A stretch of DNA of 64,000 nt from Lentimicrobium sp. Its GTDB lineage: Bacteria > Bacteroidota > Bacteroidia > Bacteroidales > Lentimicrobiaceae. The notes beneath the pieces are model-generated. The model ran no database searches. It was not told the DNA's origin and saw only the letters and a list, made by a program, of their open reading frames with translations. Shown here in pieces: positions 51,041 to 61,168 of this stretch. The stretch's first letter is position 1. Every line of letters begins with the position of its first letter. The position numbers and the translations under genes were made by a program. The stretch is from NCBI GenBank assembly GCA_019429275.1, contig JAHYJC010000003.1:62001-126000 (forward strand), in the 5' to 3' direction.

Positions 51041-51688
51041 TTATTTACCGGGTATATGTGCTTTTAGATAAGTCGTTGATTCAGGCCCCAGGTTAAACAG
51101 TAAATCCAGGATACTAAGGTTGGGCAAAAAGTTATTTCTGTCAGAAAATACCTGAATGTAAGGCTTAAAGGTTTTAATCTCCCATTCATGTGATATTTTT
51201 TGTTTAGGCATAATAAGCAAACGCATGTCATAAAAATCTTCAGTGGTTTTGCTGAATTTCACTGTAAAATCAATTTTTTTATGAATACCTGCCAGTTTCA
51301 TGCAAAGCTTTAAAAGACCAAGATTAAAATCTACTAACAATTTTGGCGGAGAAAGGAAAATATCCTCATAATAATCACGGTAATAAATGAAAAAGGGCGA
51401 TTTGTTGTAGGCAGCTTCAATGGTGCGGAAATGGATGACATTCCAGTTCTGTGACCTGTCAATTTCTACCGCTGAAAAGGGAGTATGGTTTCCAAAAGTT
51501 TTAACCACAGGGATGCTCAGGATGCTTTTGCCCTGTGCAGTTGAAATCTGATAACGGTTTCGGCAGGTTTGTTTATGAAATGTTTCATGAAGCTCAATAT
51601 TAACTGAGGGAGCATGAAGTAGCCAGGCAAAAAATTCTAAGTCAGGCAGGCTGGCCGGTGGTAATAAAACAGGAGGTAATGAAGGCAT
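51041..51688 (-). CDS. WbqC-family protein
   Basis: A 215-residue protein of the WbqC-like family, members of which are found in O-antigen clusters and are thought to act on amino-sugar or acyl intermediates; the reaction is not established. Visible: FFAWLLHAPSVNIELHETFHKQTCRNRYQI near the N-terminus, LSIPVVK, and AAYNKSPFFIYYRDYYEDIF (about 110-130), the best-conserved block. It converges with the HD gene (15 bases between stops). Its promoter overlaps the terminator of the thioredoxin pair, so it has its own transcript. Bacteroidota genomes often carry it as a single gene away from glycan clusters, as here. Confidence 0.85.
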   Translation of the reverse strand: MPSLPPVLLPPASLPDLEFFAWLLHAPSVNIELHETFHKQTCRNRYQISTAQGKSILSIPVVKTFGNHTPFSAVEIDRSQNWNVIHFRTIEAAYNKSPFFIYYRDYYEDIFLSPPKLLVDFNLGLLKLCMKLAGIHKKIDFTVKFSKTTEDFYDMRLLIMPKQKISHEWEIKTFKPYIQVFSDRNNFLPNLSILDLLFNLGPESTTYLKAHIPGK

Positions 51689-52158: not shown

Positions 52159-52680
52159 TTATTTGATGTTCTGTGAAGTCCCACCTGCAGGGGCAATCAA
52201 AATGTTTTTGATCATCTTCTCGAATTCTGTTTTTGGAAGGGCGCCCATGGTCATTTGTGGCTGGCCTTCAACAGGGACAAACAGAATGCTGGGTATGCTG
52301 CGAATGCCAAATACCTGGGCAAGTTCACGTTCCTTATCGGTGTCAACTTTATAAATGATGACCTGATCTTTATATTCCTCAGCAAGCTGAGCCATGATGG
52401 GCGCTATCTTTTTACAGGGGCCGCACCAATCAGCATAAAAGTCAATAATTACAGGTTTGTCACTTTTAAATATCCATTTTTCGGGACTTTCTTCGTAGTT
52501 ATACACTTTGTCGATAAACATGGCTTTGTTCATCTGAATTACTTTGCCGGTTTCAGATAAAGCTACTCCTGACTTTGTAACAGGATCATTTCCTGTGATC
52601 TGTCCGTTGCCGGTTGATTGATTGCAGCCCAGGAGTGCGAGGCTGGCGACAAGCATTACTGATAAAAATTGTTTGTTCAT
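52159..52680 (-). CDS. Thioredoxin-domain lipoprotein, periplasmic
   Basis: A 173-residue lipoprotein: signal peptide with lipobox LALLGC (Cys19), a short linker, then a complete thioredoxin domain with WCGPCKKIAPIM and IRSIPSILFVP. It should act on exported proteins, as reductant or oxidant depending on partner. Upstream half of the duplicated thioredoxin pair and first gene of its transcript (promoter 52719-52726). The cytoplasmic/periplasmic pairing suggests linked thiol control on both sides of the inner membrane (inference). Confidence 0.93.
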   Translation of the reverse strand: MNKQFLSVMLVASLALLGCNQSTGNGQITGNDPVTKSGVALSETGKVIQMNKAMFIDKVYNYEESPEKWIFKSDKPVIIDFYADWCGPCKKIAPIMAQLAEEYKDQVIIYKVDTDKERELAQVFGIRSIPSILFVPVEGQPQMTMGALPKTEFEKMIKNILIAPAGGTSQNIK

Positions 52681-52718
52681 ATTGGTGTCGGGTTATGTTC
52701 ATGTTTTAAATACGGCTG

Positions 52719-52726
52719 CAAAGATA
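52719..52726 (-). promoter_or_regulatory. Promoter -7 box (TATCTTTG) of the thioredoxin pair
   Basis: Exact match on the minus strand, 38 bases upstream of the start codon. Confidence 0.55.
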
Positions 52727-52770
52727 CAAATAATTTTATTTTAAAGCGCATAAATATCACTAAAAAATTT

Positions 52771-52778
52771 TATTTTTG
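52771..52778 (+). promoter_or_regulatory. Promoter -7 box (TATTTTTG) of the zinc-ribbon gene
   Basis: Exact TAnnTTTG match, 70 bases before the ATG at 52849; divergent from the thioredoxin promoter. Confidence 0.45.
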
Positions 52779-52848
52779 CAGCGAAAGAAGATACATAACA
52801 AATCCTGTGCCGTTTTGTTTAGCTTTAAAAATCAAATATTTACCTTTA

Positions 52849-53265
52849 ATGGGTTCACTGTTGCATTTATTTAAAAATCTGGAACCAAAAGATTTTAATC
52901 ATTTGTTTACATCGGCAGAGCAATGCCTTAAAGTAATTGCCGATGAAAAATGGCAGCATGGATTTATATGCAGAAAATGCGGGCACACCAATTATTGTTC
53001 TGGTAAAACGCCTCACAGCCGCCGTTGCACCAAATGCAAAACCGACGAATCGGCAACAGCCCACACCATTTTTCACCGGTGCCGGATTCCAATAACAGAT
53101 GCATTTGAAATTGCCTGGATGGTTTGTGGAACTCCTAAAATCAGTAGTTATGAACTTTCGCGCAGGTTGGATACCCGGCAGATGACCTGCTGGAAATTTA
53201 AGAAGCGCATAATGGAATGCCTTGCTGAAGGTTCAGGATTTCATTTTTTTGATTTGCCAAAGTAA
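52849..53265 (+). CDS. Stand-alone IS1595-type transposase zinc ribbon/helix-turn-helix protein
   Basis: A 139-residue protein that corresponds to the N-terminal part of IS1595-family transposases: zinc ribbon with four Cys (FICRKCGHTNYC ... RRCTKCK, residues about 42-64), the FHRCRIPITDAFEIAWMVCG segment, then a helix-turn-helix (SSYELSRRLDTRQMTCWKFKKRI). The DDE catalytic domain is missing; the frame simply stops and convergent DNA of another gene follows. No terminal inverted repeats were seen around it. It has its own promoter-like box, so it may be a domesticated DNA-binding protein instead of a broken element. The frame extends upstream to 52669, but that part is not similar to the family. 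Confidence 0.75.
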   Translation: MGSLLHLFKNLEPKDFNHLFTSAEQCLKVIADEKWQHGFICRKCGHTNYCSGKTPHSRRCTKCKTDESATAHTIFHRCRIPITDAFEIAWMVCGTPKISSYELSRRLDTRQMTCWKFKKRIMECLAEGSGFHFFDLPK

Positions 53266-53416: not shown

Positions 53417-54376
53417 TCAGACCAACCGGCTAAATTCAAAAACTTTATCAGCTTGCTTTATTCTTACGACCTGGCAATGACTTAAATGATCGAATTTATA
53501 TGGTGAGTTTATGTCAAAAAAGGTATTTTCAGCGATTTTGAACAATCCACTGCATTCTGTTTCGCCTTCTGGACTGAATCGTGAGATTATAAAATTATCA
53601 AAACGTTTAATAATTGAAAACCACGATCCTGCACCTTCACCACTTAACCATTGGGCAGCTGTTGGAATATTGGTGTGCCTGGCTGGCTCAGCTAAGGTGG
53701 TTTTAAGTTTTGTTTTATCTATAACAGGGGTTGGACAGAAAGGCTCAATGGCCAGAAGTTTAGGTAAGGTGAGTCTGTGTGACAGCGCGTTTACATTGTT
53801 CATTGGTGTTGGAGTAAACAAAACTGCATAATTTAGCCTGAAATCATATATAAAGCCAGGTTGCCCTGCAACAATACTATCATTGACAAATCTGGAACAA
53901 TTACTTCCATTGTAGGTAAATGGTCCATAAGGAACAGGGCTGCGCTGTTGAATCTGAAGAGCCTTGCTGTAAGATTTGGCGAAATCTATACTGCAGTATG
54001 ACGCATGCAAGGTGCCCTCACCATGACATTCTTTATTTAATTGAAGTTCAGTAAGGATTTCTACGATATTTTCAATTTTATTTCCTGATTCTGAAAGTCG
54101 CGCTGTGGTGTTGATTTTTAATCCGGGATCGGTAATTTCACTGCGAACCCTGCCATGCCTGAAGGGTGAGTGATACCGTCCAAAGTCAAAATATTGACAT
54201 TTAAGTGTTTCTTTGTCAATAAGAACCAGGGCGGCATGACCAACTTTGTAATAATGATGCGTGCTGATTCCCAACCTGTTTAAAAGGGCATCGTACCAGG
54301 CTCCCGGTTGTTTGCAATAGGTTTCAGGCCAGGCAATCGCTATTGCAAAGCCACTGTAATAGCTATTATCCGGCAT
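53417..54376 (-). CDS. Protein with permuted papain-like motifs (DUF6695-like)
   Basis: About 319 residues, no signal peptide. The N-terminal half has GFAIAIAWPETYCKQPGAWYD, then VGHAALVLID (His47), YFDFGRYHSPFRHGRVRS, and much later NGSNCSRFVNDSI (Cys160). The order His then Cys, each in a strand/helix context of the NlpC/P60-LRAT type, suggests a circularly permuted papain-like fold; this is inference from motifs. I associate it with DUF6695, named from memory. Its ATG lies inside the last codons of the decarboxylase gene (11-base overlap), so it is the last gene of the cysteine operon. Hydrolase or acyltransferase are possible; no substrate can be named. Confidence 0.7.
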   Translation of the reverse strand: MPDNSYYSGFAIAIAWPETYCKQPGAWYDALLNRLGISTHHYYKVGHAALVLIDKETLKCQYFDFGRYHSPFRHGRVRSEITDPGLKINTTARLSESGNKIENIVEILTELQLNKECHGEGTLHASYCSIDFAKSYSKALQIQQRSPVPYGPFTYNGSNCSRFVNDSIVAGQPGFIYDFRLNYAVLFTPTPMNNVNALSHRLTLPKLLAIEPFCPTPVIDKTKLKTTLAEPARHTNIPTAAQWLSGEGAGSWFSIIKRFDNFIISRFSPEGETECSGLFKIAENTFFDINSPYKFDHLSHCQVVRIKQADKVFEFSRLV

Positions 54377-55790
54377 AATTTTTTTCAGATTTATCTGCAA
54401 TGCTGGCTGTTTGAGTCAGAAGATTGTTAAAAAAAAGGTCGATATCTGATTTCATCAGCTCTCCATTTGCAGTAATTAAACGTATGGCCAACTCCTTACC
54501 TATATACCCATAGTTTACAATTGATTTTCCGCTTTTGCGCATAGATTCGCGCAATTGAAGATTGAACTTATTTAAATCACTTTGATTTTCAGGGATATAA
54601 CGGAAGCAAACGGCAAAAGACTGACGCAGAGACAGCAACTCAAGCTGCGGATGTTCCTTCACTTTTTTCTCCGCATATATGGCTATTTCCATCAGATTAT
54701 CAATTCGTTGGCGATAGCCTTCCAAACCATAATATTTCCAGGCAAACCATAGTTTCACAGCGTCTACCCGGCGTCCGCATTGAATTGATTTTTTGCCAAG
54801 ATCCTCAACCTCATCTATATCATGAAAAATATAATCTGTGCTCAGGTCGGTAAGGTTATACTGAAGGGTGCCCTTCTTTTTTACCAAAAACACTGAACAG
54901 ACCAGCGGAATATTCATCAGTTTGTGCGGGTTCCAGGCGAAGGAGTCGGTGCGCTCGATACCTTGCATCAGATTCCGGTACTTTTCACTGAGGATGAGCG
55001 AGCCTCCAAAGGAGCCGTCAGCGTGCAGCCAGATGCCAAACTTTTTGCAGATGTCTGCGATTTTATCAATCGGATCATAGGCCCCAAGCAAGGTGGTGGC
55101 GCAGGTAGCTGCGACAAAAAAGGGTTTCTCTCCTCGCTCAAGCGACTTGAATATTTCCATTTCCAACGCTTCCGGTGTCATTCTTCCTGAATCATCAGAT
55201 TTAACTTTAATCACATTTTTTGCACCAATGCCCAGTACATTGGCGGCTGTTTCAAACGAATAATGCGCCTGTTCACTTACAAATGCAGTAAGTTTCAGGT
55301 TGCGGTCGTATCCATGAGCCCTGCCATCGGGGAAAATCCGGTTTCGGGCCGAAAACATGCCCATAAGGTTGGCATTACTGCCTCCGGTGACAAATATTCC
55401 ATCGCCGTCGGTGTAACCTGCGTATGAATTCATCAGCGAAATCATCTCCTTTTCAATCATGGTGGCAACCGGAGCTACTTCGTAGGTGTACATGGAGGTA
55501 TTCGCCAACACAGTAAAGATTTCACCAATAAAGGCAGGGAAATTAAAGCCAGAATATAATTGATTCAGAAACTGTTTGTTTCCGGTTTTCACCGAATATT
55601 CAAGATACTTGTCAATCAGATCCAGAAATTCAAATTCTGTTACTCCACTTTCTTCTATTCCGAAATGTATGGCTTCGCGCAGTTGGGCAGGCTGCCTGAA
55701 TTGAATTACCTGATTGTCTGCATTGTTGTTAGCATCCAGATAATTTTTGATTTTCTCAAAGGACTGATTTAAAATATTTAAGTCATTCAT
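54366..55790 (-). CDS. PLP-dependent decarboxylase resembling animal GAD/cysteine-sulfinate decarboxylase
   Basis: Group II pyridoxal-phosphate decarboxylase, 474 residues. It has the blocks of the animal glutamate/cysteine-sulfinate decarboxylase clade in order: FLNQLYSGFNFPAFIGE, TSMYTYEVAPVATMIE, GDGIFVTGGSNANL, SEQAHYSFETAANVLG, WLHADGSFGGSL and FAWNPHKLMNIP with the PLP Lys290, then SIQCGRRVDAVKLWFAWK. The HADGSF block differs from the animal HVDAAW, so substrate may differ. Directly upstream is a cysteine dioxygenase-like gene (10-base gap), making cysteine sulfinate the attractive substrate and hypotaurine the product (inference); glutamate or aspartate remain alternatives. Confidence 0.88.
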   Translation of the reverse strand: MNDLNILNQSFEKIKNYLDANNNADNQVIQFRQPAQLREAIHFGIEESGVTEFEFLDLIDKYLEYSVKTGNKQFLNQLYSGFNFPAFIGEIFTVLANTSMYTYEVAPVATMIEKEMISLMNSYAGYTDGDGIFVTGGSNANLMGMFSARNRIFPDGRAHGYDRNLKLTAFVSEQAHYSFETAANVLGIGAKNVIKVKSDDSGRMTPEALEMEIFKSLERGEKPFFVAATCATTLLGAYDPIDKIADICKKFGIWLHADGSFGGSLILSEKYRNLMQGIERTDSFAWNPHKLMNIPLVCSVFLVKKKGTLQYNLTDLSTDYIFHDIDEVEDLGKKSIQCGRRVDAVKLWFAWKYYGLEGYRQRIDNLMEIAIYAEKKVKEHPQLELLSLRQSFAVCFRYIPENQSDLNKFNLQLRESMRKSGKSIVNYGYIGKELAIRLITANGELMKSDIDLFFNNLLTQTASIADKSEKNYAG

Positions 55791-55800
55791 AATACTGATC

Positions 55801-56505
55801 TTAAGCTGATGCCAATTTGTCAAGTTGTTTTTCCATATTCTCTATCACAGAATAGAGTCTGTTTCTTTTGTAAAAGAGTTTTACAAGCCCATAATAATCC
55901 TCATATAAACTGGCTTCAATTTCCGGCAAGGCTTCTTCTGCCAGGATTAATTCCGGGCTCATATTTATAAAAGCAGTGCCCATGGTAGTAAAAATTTTTT
56001 GATGTTCGGGAGCGTATATTTTTGCATTTTCCGAGATGTTGGAATCTCTGGAATTGGAGCCATAGATATGCAGTGTAGCAATATTTTGAGTACCGGCATT
56101 GCCCATCAAATGGGTAAGATCACCGCATACTGAGGCTAGCTGGCCTTCGGAGTATGTGTCTTTTTCAACTGACGTGAGCTGGCTGTTTTCAACTGTATAT
56201 AAACGGTGTGCTGCTTCACCAAAGAAATAAACACAACCCCACTCTGCATAGCCATGATTGTGTATAGCTGTGAAATCGCCTGGCTTCCATGACATAAGTA
56301 AAATCTTGAAATTGCCATTATCGAAAATCAGCTTCCTGCCGTAGCTTTCTCTGTCGGGGTGGTTAAAGGTGAAAAATGGCTCAAGATCTTCCTGCAAAAA
56401 TCTGGCTTGCTGCATAATGTCAAGTACCTGCTGATTGTGGTTCACTTTGCATGCTGACAAATCATTTATCAGACTTTGAAGGTTTTTTGAAAATAATGAA
56501 TTCAT
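55801..56505 (-). CDS. Cysteine dioxygenase-like cupin
   Basis: Cupin of about 234 residues matching the cysteine dioxygenase family, which adds O2 to the thiol of cysteine to give cysteine sulfinate. Iron ligands visible: His82 and His84 in TAIHNHGYAEWG, and His132 in CGDLTHLMGNAG; the GEAAHRLY strand follows. The Cys of the Cys-Tyr cross-link of mammalian enzymes is not at the expected position, as is usual for bacterial members. A C-terminal extension (about 175-234, YEDYYGLVKLFYKRNRLYSVIENMEKQLDKL) is longer than in simple bacterial homologues. The earlier TTG (56532) is less likely than this ATG. Substrate could also be another thiol. Confidence 0.82.
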   Translation of the reverse strand: MNSLFSKNLQSLINDLSACKVNHNQQVLDIMQQARFLQEDLEPFFTFNHPDRESYGRKLIFDNGNFKILLMSWKPGDFTAIHNHGYAEWGCVYFFGEAAHRLYTVENSQLTSVEKDTYSEGQLASVCGDLTHLMGNAGTQNIATLHIYGSNSRDSNISENAKIYAPEHQKIFTTMGTAFINMSPELILAEEALPEIEASLYEDYYGLVKLFYKRNRLYSVIENMEKQLDKLASA

Positions 56506-56528
56506 GCTGATTGATATTTGGTTGTATT

Positions 56529-57044
56529 TCAAGGGATTATAACTTCAATCAGAGGCTTATTATCGGCTTTTGAAATGGCATGTAGTTCAACACGAGATAT
56601 TTTAGGAACCCAGAAAGATCCTCCGTCAATTTGAATAAAAATTCGATCAACCTCAACTTCTTCCTTTTCTAACTTAGTGAAAACTGCATATTTTCCCTTA
56701 TTGTTCTTTTTTAGATGAAAGTCGCGTTTATTATAGCTGACAAACTGGAAAACTGCTTTTTGCTCATCAACAGATAGAAACTTAAGCCCATAAGCAAATT
56801 TTTGCTGTATCCTTGTAAGAGGCTCTGTTTTTATAACCGAAGATCTTTTTATCCATTGCACAGCAATGGGATTATTGGAATCAAGTTTATTGTTTTTCAG
56901 GGTGTTGACCATGTAAAATATTTCGTTTGCATCCTTACTACGGGCAATTTTGAACAGGATGACATCAGAAGAAGGCATTGTAAATCCGGCAAACAGTAAT
57001 CCGATGATTAGAAGTAGTAGAGAATGTTTCCAGGTATTCTTCAT
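56529..57044 (-). CDS. DUF4833-type exported protein
   Basis: A 171-residue protein with a signal peptide (WKHSLLLLIIGLLFAGFTM). The body has EIFYMVNTLKNNKLDSNNPIAVQWI, IQQKFAYGLKF and FVSYNKRDFHL, the blocks of DUF4833, a Bacteroidota family of unknown function. No catalytic residues are evident. It sits between the AhpD-like gene (3-base gap) and the cysteine dioxygenase-like gene (23-base gap), so it is part of the operon. The family name is from memory of its motifs and should be verified by profile search. Confidence 0.72.
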   Translation of the reverse strand: MKNTWKHSLLLLIIGLLFAGFTMPSSDVILFKIARSKDANEIFYMVNTLKNNKLDSNNPIAVQWIKRSSVIKTEPLTRIQQKFAYGLKFLSVDEQKAVFQFVSYNKRDFHLKKNNKGKYAVFTKLEKEEVEVDRIFIQIDGGSFWVPKISRVELHAISKADNKPLIEVIIP

Positions 57045-57047
57045 GGC

Positions 57048-57608
57048 TTAATAGATATAACCTTGAGTTTCTTCAGCTTCAGCTTCTACACCCAAAGCCA
57101 GAATTATTCGGTTTACAAAATTAAAGTAGGCAACAACCAGTGTTGCATCCAGAATTGCATTATCACTTAACCCATTTTCCCTGAGCAATTGAGTATAATC
57201 CAGCGTCATAAAACTCTCAGGATTATTGGTGAGTGCTGACGCAAAACTGCAGAGTATTTGTTCTTTGAGAGTAAGAGAAACTTTTGTATAATCCATCCTG
57301 AGCTCGTTAATCTTTTGTTCATTTTTCCAATAATGATTCAGGGCTTCGGCATGGTGAGTCTGGCAGTATTCACAGCTATTTTCTGCAGAAACAACAACAG
57401 CCATCATTTCCCTTTCGGCTCTTGAAAGTTCGGATTTCGAAAACATGATTTCCAGATACAAATCGATGTGTTTTACGATACTCTCAGGATGCAGACTCTG
57501 TATGGTATGCACTTTGGCAAGTTTACCACGCTTGATGAGTAGTTCATCATAAATGTCTTTCAACCTTCCTGTTGCCTGCTCAAAGGGAATAACTTTAATT
57601 CTGCTCAT
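57048..57608 (-). CDS. AhpD-like/peroxidase-related carboxymuconolactone-decarboxylase-fold protein
   Basis: A 186-residue all-helical protein of the AhpD/peroxidase-related group. The redox motif is SCEYCQTHHAEAL (Cys-x-x-Cys with downstream His), preceded by LSRAEREMMAVVVSAEN and followed by LREN-GLSDNAILDATLVVAYFNFVNRI. Members reduce peroxides with the CxxC pair or recycle AhpC. First gene of the 53.4-57.6 kb operon, 3 bases before the DUF4833 gene. A role in protecting the oxygen-using cysteine dioxygenase step or in thiol balance is plausible but inferred. Confidence 0.88.
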   Translation of the reverse strand: MSRIKVIPFEQATGRLKDIYDELLIKRGKLAKVHTIQSLHPESIVKHIDLYLEIMFSKSELSRAEREMMAVVVSAENSCEYCQTHHAEALNHYWKNEQKINELRMDYTKVSLTLKEQILCSFASALTNNPESFMTLDYTQLLRENGLSDNAILDATLVVAYFNFVNRIILALGVEAEAEETQGYIY

Positions 57609-57714: not shown

Positions 57715-58347
57715 CTAAGGTAAGTATTTTATTATTTCGGCTATGGAAGATCGTTTTTTATAATCCGGATCAAACTGCCGCCATGCGATTTTTTGGTCCT
57801 TTCCGATAATAAAAGTAGCAGGGATAGGAAGTCGCTGGCTATCATCAGAATGCGCATTCTTCAGGTTTGCGCCAAGCATCACATTGTACATAACCTTTGT
57901 TAAGCTGTCAGGGCTGAATGTTACATCAAACTGGTTGGCAATGACATAATTCTCGTCATAAAGCAGCGAAAAAGAGGCTTGTGTTTTTTCAACAGTTTTT
58001 GTCGAATATTCAGGTTTTTCAGGTGAAATGGCAACAACACTTGCACCATGCTTTTGAATTTCCTGCAAACTATCCTGCACCTGACCAAGATGCCTGTTGC
58101 AGACAGGACACCATTGACCCCGGTAAAAAATAAGGACAACCGGTCCCTGTTTCAGCGCCTCGCTCAAAATAAAAGTTTCGCCTTTTTGATTGATGGCCGA
58201 AAAGTCTTCAACATGATCGCCAACTGCCAGTCCTTTGGCTTCTTTTAAGGTTTTATTTTGTGACATAATGTTTGTTGTTATAAACAGTAACAACAGGATG
58301 AATAATATCCTGCTGTTACTTTTAATTGGTTCAATTGCTTTATTCAT
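57715..58347 (-). CDS. Exported peroxiredoxin-like (AhpC/TSA family) protein
   Basis: About 210 residues with an N-terminal membrane segment or signal peptide (about 12-28, ILFILLLLFITTNIMSQ). The thioredoxin-fold body has VGDHVEDFSAINQKG, VLIFYRGQWCPVCNRHLGQVQ with a WCPVC motif, SPEKPEYSTKTVEK, and a C-terminal IPATFIIGKDQKIAWRQFDPDYKKR. The FYRGxWCPxC form is that of AhpC/TSA-like peroxiredoxins of the alkyl hydroperoxidase class. Starts 4 bases after the thioredoxin-fold gene stop; last gene of the DsrE-YceI operon. The longer frame (58422) runs into the previous gene and is rejected. Confidence 0.86.
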   Translation of the reverse strand: MNKAIEPIKSNSRILFILLLLFITTNIMSQNKTLKEAKGLAVGDHVEDFSAINQKGETFILSEALKQGPVVLIFYRGQWCPVCNRHLGQVQDSLQEIQKHGASVVAISPEKPEYSTKTVEKTQASFSLLYDENYVIANQFDVTFSPDSLTKVMYNVMLGANLKNAHSDDSQRLPIPATFIIGKDQKIAWRQFDPDYKKRSSIAEIIKYLP

Positions 58348-58351
58348 TTTT

Positions 58352-58783
58352 TTAGTTTTTTGCCAGGGCAATAAATTGTTCAGGATTACGGTAGCCAGAT
58401 GATTGTTTAGCCAGACTCCCATCAGGATTTAAAAATACAAAGGTTGGATAGCCTCTGACACCATATTTGCGGGCAAGTTGAATACCTTCTCCTTTTTCAG
58501 CATCCAGGGATACATTAATAAAGGTTGAATTATAGTAATCTGCGACACTGGCATCGGTATATACATTTGCTTTCATTCGTTTGCAATAACCACACCAACT
58601 GGTTGAAAGATCAAGAAAAACCGGTTTGTTTTGCTGTTGAGCCAGTTGAAGGGCTTCATTCCATGTGCCGGTGTGGAAATTGATTTTCAATTCATCTGAT
58701 CCCAGATCCGGATTGCCTGGAATAAATGCTGTTGCAATAACAAATGCAATAATGCTTGTAATTAAAATCCCGGTTGTTTTCAT
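58352..58783 (-). CDS. Thioredoxin-fold exported protein (DsbD/Thioredoxin_7-like)
   Basis: A 143-residue protein with a signal peptide (GILITSIIAFVIATAF) and a thioredoxin domain with PVFLDLSTSWCGYCKRM (CGYC active site) and the cis-Pro motif VRGYPTFVFLNPDG. It resembles the Thioredoxin_7/DUF255-like proteins that reduce periplasmic partners. Between the YceI gene (11-base gap) and the peroxiredoxin-like gene (4-base gap), which makes it the probable electron donor of that peroxiredoxin (inference). Confidence 0.88.
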   Translation of the reverse strand: MKTTGILITSIIAFVIATAFIPGNPDLGSDELKINFHTGTWNEALQLAQQQNKPVFLDLSTSWCGYCKRMKANVYTDASVADYYNSTFINVSLDAEKGEGIQLARKYGVRGYPTFVFLNPDGSLAKQSSGYRNPEQFIALAKN

Positions 58784-58794
58784 GGTTATTGGTT

Positions 58795-59361
58795 TTATTC
58801 GGGTTTATATTCAGCGTGTACGGTAACTTCAACCGTTTTTGCAATGTTGCTTGAAGGTTTACCTTTTACGAAAGTAATTCCATAATCGGCCAATGTTACA
58901 TTGAACTTACTCTGAACTTCGATTGTATTTCCTTTTATAACAATGGTTCCGGTTTCTTTAACAGGTTTTGTTACCTCTTTTATGGTCAATTCTCCCTCTA
59001 CATTGGCTTTGTAGGTTCCGTCTTTTGAAAAATCAATTTCTGACAGGTTGGTTATTTTACCTTTTAGCTTGGCTTTAGGAAATGCTTTGGTATCCAGAAA
59101 TTTATTACTGTTAAAGTGTTGTTGCATCAGACTTTTTTCAAATTCAAAGCCTTGCATGGGTACTGAAAACACAACATCTCCGGTGCTTACATTGATGGTG
59201 CTGATTGAGGTGCTGTTGCTTGCACTGATATCCTCAACCGAGGTGTGTGAGTAAAACCCGATTTGTGTTTTTGTGCTGACAAGTTTACCTGATGTTTGGC
59301 TGTTGGCTGTTAATGCAACCAGCAATACCAGGCTACTTAAAATAATGCTTACTTTTTTCAT
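58795..59361 (-). CDS. YceI-family periplasmic lipid-binding protein
   Basis: A 188-residue exported protein (signal peptide about 1-21, IILSSLVLLVALTANS) with the YceI lipocalin-like barrel: TSISTINVSTGDVVFSVPMQGFEFEKSLMQ, HFNSNKFLDTKAFPKAKLKGKI, VEGELTIKEVTKPV and a final SKFNVTLADYGI. YceI proteins bind isoprenoid quinone-like lipids in structures known so far and often sit with respiratory or stress genes. Middle gene of the DsrE-to-peroxiredoxin operon. Ligand here unknown. Confidence 0.9.
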   Translation of the reverse strand: MKKVSIILSSLVLLVALTANSQTSGKLVSTKTQIGFYSHTSVEDISASNSTSISTINVSTGDVVFSVPMQGFEFEKSLMQQHFNSNKFLDTKAFPKAKLKGKITNLSEIDFSKDGTYKANVEGELTIKEVTKPVKETGTIVIKGNTIEVQSKFNVTLADYGITFVKGKPSSNIAKTVEVTVHAEYKPE

Positions 59362-59395: not shown

Positions 59396-59881
59396 TTATT
59401 TCACATTCAATACGTTACTTTTTTCGACAATGACATTCTCATACATCTCAAGGTCTTCATCGTACGCTGCGCCTGAGCGAATAACCCCTTTAATGGTCAC
59501 AGTCTGCCCAATTCTGAGGGTTTTGGCCCGATCGTTGGTTTCTTCTGTGAAAGAGCAGCTAACTCCTGCTTTGTCATTTTCGCTTTTTAAAAGAATAACT
59601 ACCAGACCATTGAAATCCTCACTTATGTTATTGACTGTTCCTGTAATTTCCAGTATTTTTGAATCACCATCATCAGAGAGATATTTTTCATTGGCAGCAG
59701 CGTTATTTTCCAGGTATTCCTGAACTATCTGCGTACTTGTAACAGTAAAGTCTGTTTTTGCAGACTGAGTGTCGCGATGGGGTTTGTTGAACATATAATA
59801 GGCTGTTGATAACCCTATGAGCAAACCTACTATCAAAAGTATTGCCCCGATTTTTACTATTTTTTTTGTTTTCGGTGTCAT
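59396..59881 (-). CDS. Membrane-anchored OB-fold protein (tRNA_anti-like)
   Basis: About 161 residues: one N-terminal transmembrane helix (about 8-30, IGAILLIVGLLIGLSTAYYMF), then a small OB-fold-like domain (about 65-160, ILEITGTVNNISEDFNGLVVILLKSE ... SCSFTEETNDRAKTLRIGQTVTIKGVI), of the tRNA_anti-like type common in Bacteroidota envelope proteins. Function unknown; nucleic-acid binding is not implied for the periplasmic members. The start at 59881 is preferred because longer forms run into the DsrE gene, 10 bases upstream. Confidence 0.78.
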   Translation of the reverse strand: MTPKTKKIVKIGAILLIVGLLIGLSTAYYMFNKPHRDTQSAKTDFTVTSTQIVQEYLENNAAANEKYLSDDGDSKILEITGTVNNISEDFNGLVVILLKSENDKAGVSCSFTEETNDRAKTLRIGQTVTIKGVIRSGAAYDEDLEMYENVIVEKSNVLNVK

Positions 59882-59891
59882 GGTTATTTTA

Positions 59892-60248
59892 TTAAACGGT
59901 GAGAACATGGTATCCTTCAATAAAGAGGTTCCTGAGACTTGGATGGTTTTTATATTCATCAAGCAATGTTAAACCTGATTTTTCAACTTCGCTTTTTACA
60001 CCAAAGGCTTGTGCGCAATAGGCGCAAACTCCGGTAATGTTGCTTTTTAATTCAGTATACATTGAATGAAGCATGTGATCTTCCTTTTCCATTTCACCAA
60101 TCCATTTTGTTCCGGCTCCTTCAAAAATAAATTTAAGTTCATCGCCATTTTCAAGGGCTTCATTTGCCAGTACAAATGCATTTGAAACTTTTCCTAAAGC
60201 TTCCTTGGTAATTGTGTCTGCAAAGACAATGATTGCAATTTTTGCCAT
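59892..60248 (-). CDS. DsrE-family protein
   Basis: A 118-residue cytoplasmic protein of the DsrE/TusD fold, which in sulfur metabolism passes persulfide sulfur. Visible: AKIAIIVFADTITKEALGKVSNAFVLANEAL, LKFIFEGAGTKWIGEM and CAYCAQAFGVKSEVEKSG, with a Cys pair (CAYC, about 77-80) in the place of the active Cys of DsrE-like proteins. First gene of the operon; the OB-fold gene follows after 10 bases. A role in handling sulfane sulfur fits the thiol-related neighbours (inference). Confidence 0.87.
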   Translation of the reverse strand: MAKIAIIVFADTITKEALGKVSNAFVLANEALENGDELKFIFEGAGTKWIGEMEKEDHMLHSMYTELKSNITGVCAYCAQAFGVKSEVEKSGLTLLDEYKNHPSLRNLFIEGYHVLTV

Positions 60249-60392
60249 TTTGATTTTTTTTTAGTTTGTTTCTTTTTTAAGTACAGTAATTCAGTCGATA
60301 AAAATTGAATTCCTGACAAAATAGGAATAAAAAAAGATAAGTTCAATCATTGTGCTGATCTTAAGTATTTCAAAATGAATATTATAGCTTTG

Positions 60393-60868
60393 TCAGAGTA
60401 TTTTGAATTTTATGAAGGAATTTTTACCAAAAGGCGATATGTAGCCTATGTTCAGTTTTTTGTAAACTAGATTGGGAATCCCGATGTCAGCAACATAAAG
60501 TTCTCCACTTACTTCAGGAAAGAGGCCTGTTTTTGGGAGCGCCAGTGTAAGCGTTGCATTGGGGTTAATTTGATTAACGGCTCTTTTTCCGGTTGTGGAG
60601 TCAATTCCCGATGGCACATCGAGTGATATGACAACCGCTGATTTTTTGGCAACATACTGGATCATTATTAAAGCATTGCCTTTTGTTTCGCCGGTCAGAC
60701 TATACCCGATTATGGCATCGAGGATCAAATCAGGCTTTCCATTTTTTACGTTTTCACGCGTAACAACCAGATGTAATTCTTGCCCGATATTCATAACCTC
60801 CAAAACATGCTCAACTTCGGGCAAGTTCGACATGGTTGCAAGTGCTGTCAGATAATTGTCGTTAAACA
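60393..60868 (-). pseudogene. Truncated NAD(P)H-hydrate epimerase (YjeF_N) remnant
   Basis: The C-terminal half of a YjeF_N-domain protein: PDLILDAIIGYSLTGETKG, VVISLDVPSGIDSTTGK, LTLALPKTGLF and GELYVADIGIPNLVY are all recognisable. The N-terminal Rossmann part with the GNNGGDG motif is missing; the frame continues upstream only through DNA that codes for another peptide on the plus strand. Truncation point is near 60866. Not functional as an epimerase as far as the sequence shows. No start codon can be assigned with confidence. Confidence 0.7.
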
Positions 60869-61168
60869 GTGAATAAAGAAACGCCATACAACCCCAAAGA
60901 CCACAAAAAACAAGACAACCCGGTACTGGAAGAATTTGGCAGTGTGCATCTGGCCCAGAACGAAAAGGAGGAGCTGCTGCATGAGTTGTTCCTTTCGGTG
61001 GCAACTACCTTTCTTTGGAAGCGAATTGAACAGCGACACCATGCTGATCTCAGGGCCATTCAGGAAGAAAAACGTCGCAAGTTTAAGGCCGAAAAAGCAG
61101 AATACGAAAACCTTTCAAAAGAAGAAAAAGAAAAACGTCTGCTCGAAGGACTCTATAATTATAAGTAG
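60869..61168 (+). CDS. Small charged protein, possibly a gene remnant
   Basis: A 99-residue frame opening with a GTG just after an in-frame stop (60863-60865) at the very point where the YjeF_N remnant on the other strand breaks off. The peptide is highly charged with a coiled-coil-like second half (RAIQEEKRRKFKAEKAEYENLSKEEKEKRLLEGL). I recognise no family. It may be the C-terminal piece of a gene cut in the same rearrangement. Codon use looks coding, but no promoter or RBS is evident. Confidence 0.4.
   Translation: MNKETPYNPKDHKKQDNPVLEEFGSVHLAQNEKEELLHELFLSVATTFLWKRIEQRHHADLRAIQEEKRRKFKAEKAEYENLSKEEKEKRLLEGLYNYK

Follow-up and report, generated by a model that had tools for sequence, protein, structure and literature searches.

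Agnello et al. are said to have reported in 2013 that bacterial genes encoding cysteine sulfinate decarboxylase (CSAD) form operons with genes of cysteine dioxygenase (CDO). A bacterial taurine pathway with the CSAD of Synechococcus is in print (sections of PMC8153620), and part of PMC10703444 mentions marine archaea that form taurine by way of CDO; the idea of a two-enzyme hypotaurine route is already known in bacteria. Here, a 64,000-nucleotide stretch of the genome of Lentimicrobium sp. (Bacteroidota; Bacteroidales; assembly GCA_019429275.1, contig JAHYJC010000003.1, positions 62,001 to 126,000), called the window below, was analyzed. On its minus strand lie adjacent genes for a CDO-type cupin, a pyridoxal phosphate (PLP) decarboxylase and a protein similar to the permuted NlpC/P60 enzyme TseH, all within a run of redox genes. 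We interpret the ensemble as a redox-stress cluster whose metabolic arms can be exchanged, in which gene content, order, residues and folds point to a predicted two-step hypotaurine arm (CDO, then the decarboxylase) with putative substrates, product and regulation; we put the probability of this reading at roughly 0.6. The cluster and its third partner look new, and no description of the cluster was found in the open-licence PMC literature among the matches listed, those for bacterial CDO/CSAD being mostly animal papers.

The cupin and the decarboxylase

CDO enzymes have a three-His iron site, a Ser/Thr-His-Tyr set and an Arg (not Gln) that binds the cysteine carboxylate. Counted from the TTG at 56532, the cupin of the window contains R66, H91, H93, H141 and T153-H155-Y157, the residue set of type I CDO with Arg rather than Gln. 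The three histidines are those listed in the original prediction as His82/84/132, renumbered for the 243-amino acid (aa) form that starts at the upstream TTG. Membership in the CDO family, which had been proposed, is borne out by a score above the curated PF05995 cut-off (Table 1), and the best solved relative is the Bacillus subtilis CDO (3eqe, 40.5 bits), followed by other thiol dioxygenases. An alignment of 104 CDO rows, compiled without copies and without domains shorter than 110 residues, keeps the HxH pair, the third His and the His-x-Tyr pair throughout. Only three rows lack the Arg: L091 has Lys, L104 is cut short and the 6xb9 reference has Gln. A quick tree of 102 of these rows (L104 and L015 omitted) placed the window CDO with Bacteroidota in a 90-row branch that includes cyanobacterial and methyltransferase-fused proteins, whereas the CDOs of family f48 and of B. 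subtilis lay on another branch; 40 of 99 inner branches were open and several rows, including 6xb9, were long, which leaves the details of the tree unsure. Judged from its sequence, the cupin is a CDO-family member predicted to oxidise cysteine to cysteine sulfinate.

The decarboxylase lies well above the PF00282 cut-off of 27 bits, as anticipated, and a phmmer search of the PDB gave CSAD (325 bits), GADL1 (319 bits) and GAD1 (319 bits). Numbered from the TTG at 55823, it keeps the PLP lysine (Lys301), the loop tyrosine (Tyr331), His187 and Arg448. Its selectivity pocket is Y90/S110/Y112, at the three positions reportedly defined by Agnello et al. in 2013. The pocket of mouse GADL1, an enzyme that accepts Asp and cysteine sulfinate but not Glu, is likewise Y-S-Y, whereas that of CSAD is F-S-Y and that of human GAD1 is S-N-F. 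Against the CSAD motif Phe-Ser-Tyr, the second and third positions agree and the first differs; a change from Ser to Tyr/Phe at this first position is described in part of PMC7367687. The enzyme lacks the Ser-Asn-Phe pocket of the glutamate type and reached 34.8 bits with TIGR01788 versus the 380.4 needed, and glutamate is an unlikely substrate by sequence. With Y-S-Y instead of F-S-Y, aspartate stays a possible substrate, and between cysteine sulfinate and aspartate the sequence favours neither.

A tree of 42 decarboxylase rows was constructed without rows shorter than 380 aa and near-copies; it included only four animal rows, and two rows and one join were flagged for long branches. The animal GAD1, GADL1 and two CSAD sequences formed a clade of their own with 100/100 support. 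The window enzyme fell in a 24-row Bacteroidota clade beside four cyanobacterial rows, and by this tree it does not share the descent of GADL1 apart from CSAD and GAD. Since the animal rows form a separate clade, the window decarboxylase represents a bacterial sister line and no animal CSAD. The "animal-type" label originally given to it is supported as to the best solved relatives and weakened as to grouping. Within the 24-row clade, the pocket is Y-S-Y in 22 rows, the others being F-T-A (L103, G546) and Y-A-H (L109, G581). Gene gain from animals was considered and finds no support in the tree. The catalytic loop is three residues shorter than in animal CSAD, GADL1 and GAD1, and this had raised the suspicion of an aldehyde synthase that has lost the loop tyrosine; the suspicion was dropped, as all 42 rows retain Tyr331.

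Two further CDO arrangements were observed in related genomes. In family f48, from the same class Bacteroidia (L011, L012, L013, L014, L016), a CDO gene stands beside that of a decarboxylase whose pocket reads F-S-Y, as in human CSAD; the five f48 decarboxylase rows all have this motif and form a clade of their own. By the motif, the f48 pairs appear to be better candidates for a taurine route than the pair in the window. In addition, a scan of genome contigs with the CDO alignment, which kept 80 of 92 loci of relatives, showed a CDO domain fused N-terminally to a class I S-adenosylmethionine methyltransferase (494-594 aa) in 19 of the 80 loci (L036, L038, L040, L041, L044, L047, L051, L055, L056, L058, L060, L065, L073, L078, L079, L080, L083, L088, L090). 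The hosts are Saprospiraceae, other Bacteroidota, Nitrospinota and a metagenome-assembled genome (MAG) of Campylobacteraceae, and a divergent thioredoxin gene lies upstream in eight of the 19 loci. A methylated sulfinate or amine as the product of such a fusion would be new.

Conserved gene order and the TseH-like partner

In the window, the CDO and decarboxylase genes are adjacent on one strand with a gap of 10 nucleotides, the layout of the bacterial CDO+CSAD operon. The order CDO, decarboxylase, TseH/DUF6695 was found in 11 of the 80 CDO loci (L017-L027), with partial versions in L030 and L032, and the full five-gene order from the AhpD-like to the TseH-like gene occurs in three further loci (L018, L019, L168/G739), so the order is conserved as the original prediction expected. 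Among the named hosts are the cultured Perlabentimonas gracilis (L024, with CDO, decarboxylase and TseH-like genes), an isolate of the Marinilabiliaceae and MAGs labelled Draconibacterium and Paludibacter; several of the loci presumably come from lake, cave or groundwater samples.

From the order to which the window belongs, 344 genomes were compared for co-occurrence. Of these, 13 genomes of 11 families have the decarboxylase (at least 50% identity), 15 the window CDO type and 23 the TseH-like protein. The count of 13 excludes two weak matches of 29-30% identity (G469, G565); the count of 15 comprises matches with E < 1e-30, including the methyltransferase-fused protein of G052, and G726, which is cut by a contig end, with six weaker genomes left out. 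The decarboxylase and CDO occur together in 10 genomes versus 0.57 expected (P = 1.5e-13, a guide only because the genomes are related), in seven cases in one cluster and in three on different contigs (G480, G581, G693). The sets of CDO loci and of genomes overlap (G732 is L027, and G726 is close to L018), and therefore the counts are not independent. The proposed pairing of the two enzymes exceeds chance, but the tightest partner of the decarboxylase is the TseH-like protein, present in 12 of the 13 decarboxylase genomes as against 10 of 13 for CDO.

Stretches around the decarboxylase gene were taken from 12 of the 13 genomes (all but G000). TseH-like open reading frames (ORFs) follow the decarboxylase in 11 of them, the exception being G684 with a glycosyltransferase in this place; the TseH-like gene is read as separate ORFs in L162, L163, L165 and L166, as well as in L030. 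CDO and TseH without the decarboxylase were found in none of the genomes, a count resting on the 15 CDO genomes. With the Pfam model, CDO_I stretches were detected in two genomes that have TseH without the decarboxylase, namely, G492 (L182; 34.7 bits, 440-aa frame) and G593 (L183; 27.7 bits, 431-aa frame).

The TseH-like protein has no signal peptide by eye, and its His47 and Cys160 are invariant in 11 of 11 aligned sequences. Its AlphaFold model, with a predicted local distance difference test (pLDDT) score of 78.4, matched TseH (6v98) with Z 15.6 and a root-mean-square deviation of 3.4 over 166 aligned residues, the next rows having a Z of about 6, perhaps of little meaning. Family score, fold and the order of His before Cys are all those of permuted NlpC/P60 proteins. 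According to sections of PMC12994826, the TseH clade belongs to these proteins and the studied members act on acyl groups, among them the Bacteroides lipoprotein N-acyltransferase Lnb. The same sections give mixed assay results for TseH, which was inactive by mass spectrometry and showed phospholipase activity when measured by fluorescence, and report conflict contexts for the TseH clade (DUF6695). Since acyl groups are the targets of relatives with this fold, the product may be N-acylated, and the coupling to a small-amine decarboxylase suggests, by analogy, N-acylation.

For the genomes that have TseH without the decarboxylase, stretches were taken from eight of 11; in six of the eight, DinB-like and TANGO2-family genes directly precede the TseH-like gene, the DinB-like assignment being weak (16.4 bits, cut-off 23). 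This three-gene unit is seen in L172, L174, L175, L176, L177 and L178. In humans, TANGO2 is linked to disease, and its function is debated. A bolder and rather unlikely extension of the above is that the decarboxylase-TseH/DUF6695 couple, fed by CDO, would make N-acylated hypotaurine (an aminolipid with a sulfinate head group), or would transfer acyl groups to the amine, as a response of the membrane to oxidative stress; in genomes that lack the decarboxylase, another route, with the DinB-like and TANGO2-family genes in the same place, would serve the same acyltransferase-like protein.

The redox cluster and its genomic setting

Table 1. Genes of the minus-strand run in the window, with profile scores and recurrence in 18 related loci
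Feature	Position	Strand	Profile match and remarks	Recurrence
TseH-like permuted NlpC/P60 protein with C-terminal DUF6695	53417..54376	-	PF25218 158.6 bits; PF20405 87 bits	
PLP decarboxylase	54366..55790	-	PF00282 287.7 bits	
Cysteine dioxygenase-type cupin (CDO_I)	55801..56505	-	PF05995 34.6 bits (cut-off 23)	
DUF4833 protein, beta-rich, function not assigned	56529..57044	-	PF16117 124.6 bits	12/18
AhpD-like peroxidase-related enzyme	57048..57608	-	TIGR01926 140.2 bits (cut-off 81.8); PF02627 52 bits	7/18
Peroxiredoxin-like protein (AhpC/TSA), secreted form by eye	57715..58422	-	PF00578 100.8 bits; homologues near CDO in related loci	7/18
Thioredoxin-like protein	58352..58783	-	PF13098 67.8 bits; cluster c8	7/18
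YceI-like protein	58795..59361	-	PF04264 68.1 bits; cluster c3	13/18
OB-fold tRNA_anti-like protein	59396..59962	-	PF12869 67.3 bits; cluster c2	13/18
DsrE-like protein, first gene of the run	59892..60248	-	PF02635 26.3 bits (cut-off 22.7); cluster c15	4/18

The five genes for which a dedicated sulfonate or sulfinate operon had been proposed, from the AhpD-like to the TseH-like gene, were all recovered on the minus strand at the predicted coordinates. The predicted spacings of 3, 23, 10 and -11 bases hold with ATG starts at 55790 (decarboxylase), 56505 (CDO) and 54376 (TseH-like); the last value corresponds to an 11-nucleotide overlap of the TseH-like gene with the end of the decarboxylase gene. 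Pfam and NCBIfam agree on the five family assignments. The proposal of a stand-alone operon itself is weakened: on the same strand the five genes are preceded by those of the DsrE-like, OB-fold, YceI-like, thioredoxin-like and peroxiredoxin-like proteins, with a widest gap of 106 bases, and they belong to this longer redox cluster. The DUF4833 protein has an N-terminal hydrophobic helix, a signal or anchor by eye, and its model (pLDDT 85.0) gave no match in the PDB at E <= 0.001.

Recurrence of the families (Table 1) was counted in 18 related loci picked for a decarboxylase or DUF4833 gene near CDO. An extracytoplasmic function (ECF) sigma factor gene is present in seven of these, and a small cysteine-containing anti-sigma-like gene in seven, four of them with the decarboxylase; the sigma/anti-sigma pair was also found in four of 20 further stretches, two of them with the decarboxylase. 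A sigma-70 motif scan was uninformative (28 motifs versus 23.1 in shuffles, standard deviation 4.3); Bacteroidota promoters are different.

Other genes were noted in the related loci. An EgtD-like methyltransferase gene (279 bits, cut-off 290.9) stands with that of a rhodanese protein in L018:224-2490, the two are also side by side in L029:6094-8429, and an EgtD-like gene is found in L174:9501-10529. These genes recall anaerobic ergothioneine synthesis, a possible lead only. A Rieske domain fused to a pyruvate-oxidase-like thiamine pyrophosphate (TPP) enzyme is encoded in L018:4929-6899, L019:4951-6891, L172, L173 and L176; in L018, L172, L173 and L176 a Rieske/glutamate-synthase-like gene adjoins it. 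A sulfoacetaldehyde (Xsc) route was considered for this enzyme and rejected, the L018 protein scoring highest as pyruvate oxidase (424.6 bits with a cut-off of 742) and reaching 250.5 bits versus 620 as sulfoacetaldehyde acetyltransferase.

As for the local history, gene order was compared with five of 18 same-genus relatives, all of which share that of the window up to 53.3 kb and then diverge; the window CDO was found in none of the 18, several of which are incomplete. The end of shared order at 53.3 kb and the absence of CDO from the relatives indicate that the block sits at a breakpoint and is sporadic in the genus. The breakpoint is marked by a zinc-ribbon protein (52669-53265) that by eye resembles part of an IS1595-type transposase and is 77-80% identical in five same-genus relatives. 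Assembly contamination was rejected, since the gene at 51041-51688 has a match in all 19 genomes of the genus, including the window's own, and the five relatives compared keep the order up to 53.3 kb. At the other end of the run, 59557-60745 has a counterpart some 7.6 kb farther along the contig (91.4% across 1189 bases). The region 59557-60886 duplicates in part, at 91-94% identity, the contig sequence numbered 67189-68368 and 68992-69147 in window coordinates, and the duplication leaves a truncated YjeF-like ORF at 60393-61004. The genes after the distant copy, judged from their starts, are presumably an oxidative pentose phosphate set.

Proposed function, alternatives and known systems

Based on its family and residues, the CDO-type cupin would turn cysteine into cysteine sulfinate with O2 and iron, and the PLP decarboxylase would then remove CO2 to give hypotaurine, as its fold, its catalytic residues and a pocket expected to exclude glutamate suggest. 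Hypotaurine is an antioxidant sulfinate. Removal of cysteine at rising O2 would in addition keep thiol toxicity in check, and the neighbouring peroxiredoxin, AhpD, thioredoxin, DsrE and YceI proteins would deal with peroxides, disulfides and reactive sulfur. The ECF sigma/anti-sigma pair of some homologous clusters suggests stress control. In a speculative third step, the overlapping permuted NlpC/P60 product may be an acyltransferase or lipase with the amine or lipids as its substrate.

Several observations weigh against the hypotaurine arm. The CDO score is modest (34.6 bits). No CDO_I was found in three of the 13 decarboxylase genomes (G053, G546, G684); G053 and G684 keep Y-S-Y all the same, which argues against strict dependence on CDO, and in G546 the pocket is altered to F-T-A. 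Conversely, the window CDO type occurs without the decarboxylase in five of 344 genomes, and five DUF4833-CDO loci (L028, L029, L034, L042, L070) contain no decarboxylase in the stretch. There is no ECF sigma gene among the annotated window genes around the run. A hypotaurine oxidase, exporter or user was not recognised, with no dedicated search made. Finally, the pocket is that of GADL1, which favours Asp over cysteine sulfinate according to parts of PMC5947694 and PMC7367687. The proposed CDO+CSAD route stands as to the CDO family and the lack of a glutamate-type pocket, and is weakened by the GADL1-like pocket, with which aspartate is possible.

The latter points lead to the main alternative, which we consider unlikely on balance: a GADL1-like aspartate decarboxylase would make beta-alanine, CDO would separately remove cysteine, and the pairing would reflect shared regulation only. 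Besides the pocket and the three genomes in which CDO_I was not found, G053 and G581 fit it, having PanC but no PanD found, as expected if the decarboxylase supplied beta-alanine, in fragmented assemblies of 440 and 940 contigs. However, nine of the 13 genomes with the decarboxylase also have PanD. The window's own genome is one of them; PanD stands there beside PanC, and beta-alanine is thus supplied otherwise. Of the four without PanD, two (G480, G732) gave no PanC either, so that they need no beta-alanine for this route. CDO accompanies the decarboxylase in 10 of the 13 genomes, the first pocket position of CSAD differs from that of GADL1 just by Phe for Tyr, and the pocket of G581 (Y-A-H) is not GADL1-like. 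A beta-alanine role is unlikely in the window genome but conceivable elsewhere.

An osmolyte role for taurine made by the CDO-decarboxylase route, of the kind suggested for cyanobacteria and marine plankton, is improbable. Parts of PMC8153620 describe the CSAD of Synechococcus sp. PCC 7335, parts of PMC10703444 treat taurine as an osmoprotectant in marine microbes, and four of six Moorena loci with the window CDO type have a related decarboxylase in the same stretch. Yet the recurring company of these genes consists of peroxide and disulfide enzymes, with no osmotic genes recognised in the cluster, nor a hypotaurine-oxidising gene, for which no dedicated search was made. Some hosts, moreover, are presumably lake or groundwater organisms.

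A chance neighbourhood, that is, a stress island of unrelated co-regulated enzymes with CDO and decarboxylase in no common pathway, would agree with the differing make-up of the clusters but is very improbable given that the two genes occur together far beyond chance, and in two separate CDO/decarboxylase branches. The reading that the TseH-like gene encodes a type VI effector directed against bacteria and sits in a mixed locus, to which the 6v98 match and the conflict contexts mentioned in part of PMC12994826 might point, is hardly credible for a protein without a signal peptide by eye that follows the decarboxylase in 11 of 12 stretches and elsewhere TANGO2 and redox genes, with no secretion or immunity gene recognised among the annotated neighbours (no dedicated search was made).

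If the two-step hypotaurine arm is real, hypotaurine/taurine-type chemistry would extend to several families of one Bacteroidota order, with redox defence rather than osmolyte supply as the suggested purpose. The DUF6695/TseH-like and DUF4833 families gain a testable metabolic setting, and a new class of sulfur lipids would follow if the third enzyme acylates the amine.

Compared with the bacterial CDO+CSAD taurine route, the locus shares a CDO-family enzyme, a GAD/CSAD-family decarboxylase and, by the CSAD motif, Ser and Tyr at two of three positions; it differs in Tyr rather than Phe at the first position and in the redox-stress cluster with a nearly constant TseH/DUF6695 partner. With animal CSAD, GADL1 and GAD1 the decarboxylase has in common the family, PLP lysine and loop tyrosine, its pocket motif being identical to that of GADL1, whereas it lies outside the animal clade (100/100, four rows) and has the shorter loop. 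The B. subtilis CDO (3eqe) and the family f48 pairs share the iron histidines, the Arg and Ser/Thr-His-Tyr, and the window CDO belongs to a separate branch. Similarly, the third partner resembles the permuted NlpC/P60 enzymes treated in part of PMC12994826 (TseH, Tox-Act1, LRAT, YiiX, Lnb/DUF4105) in its TseH-like fold and His-before-Cys order, and is set apart from them by a two-domain structure, the absence of a recognised secretion context among the annotated neighbours and the coupling to a PLP decarboxylase.

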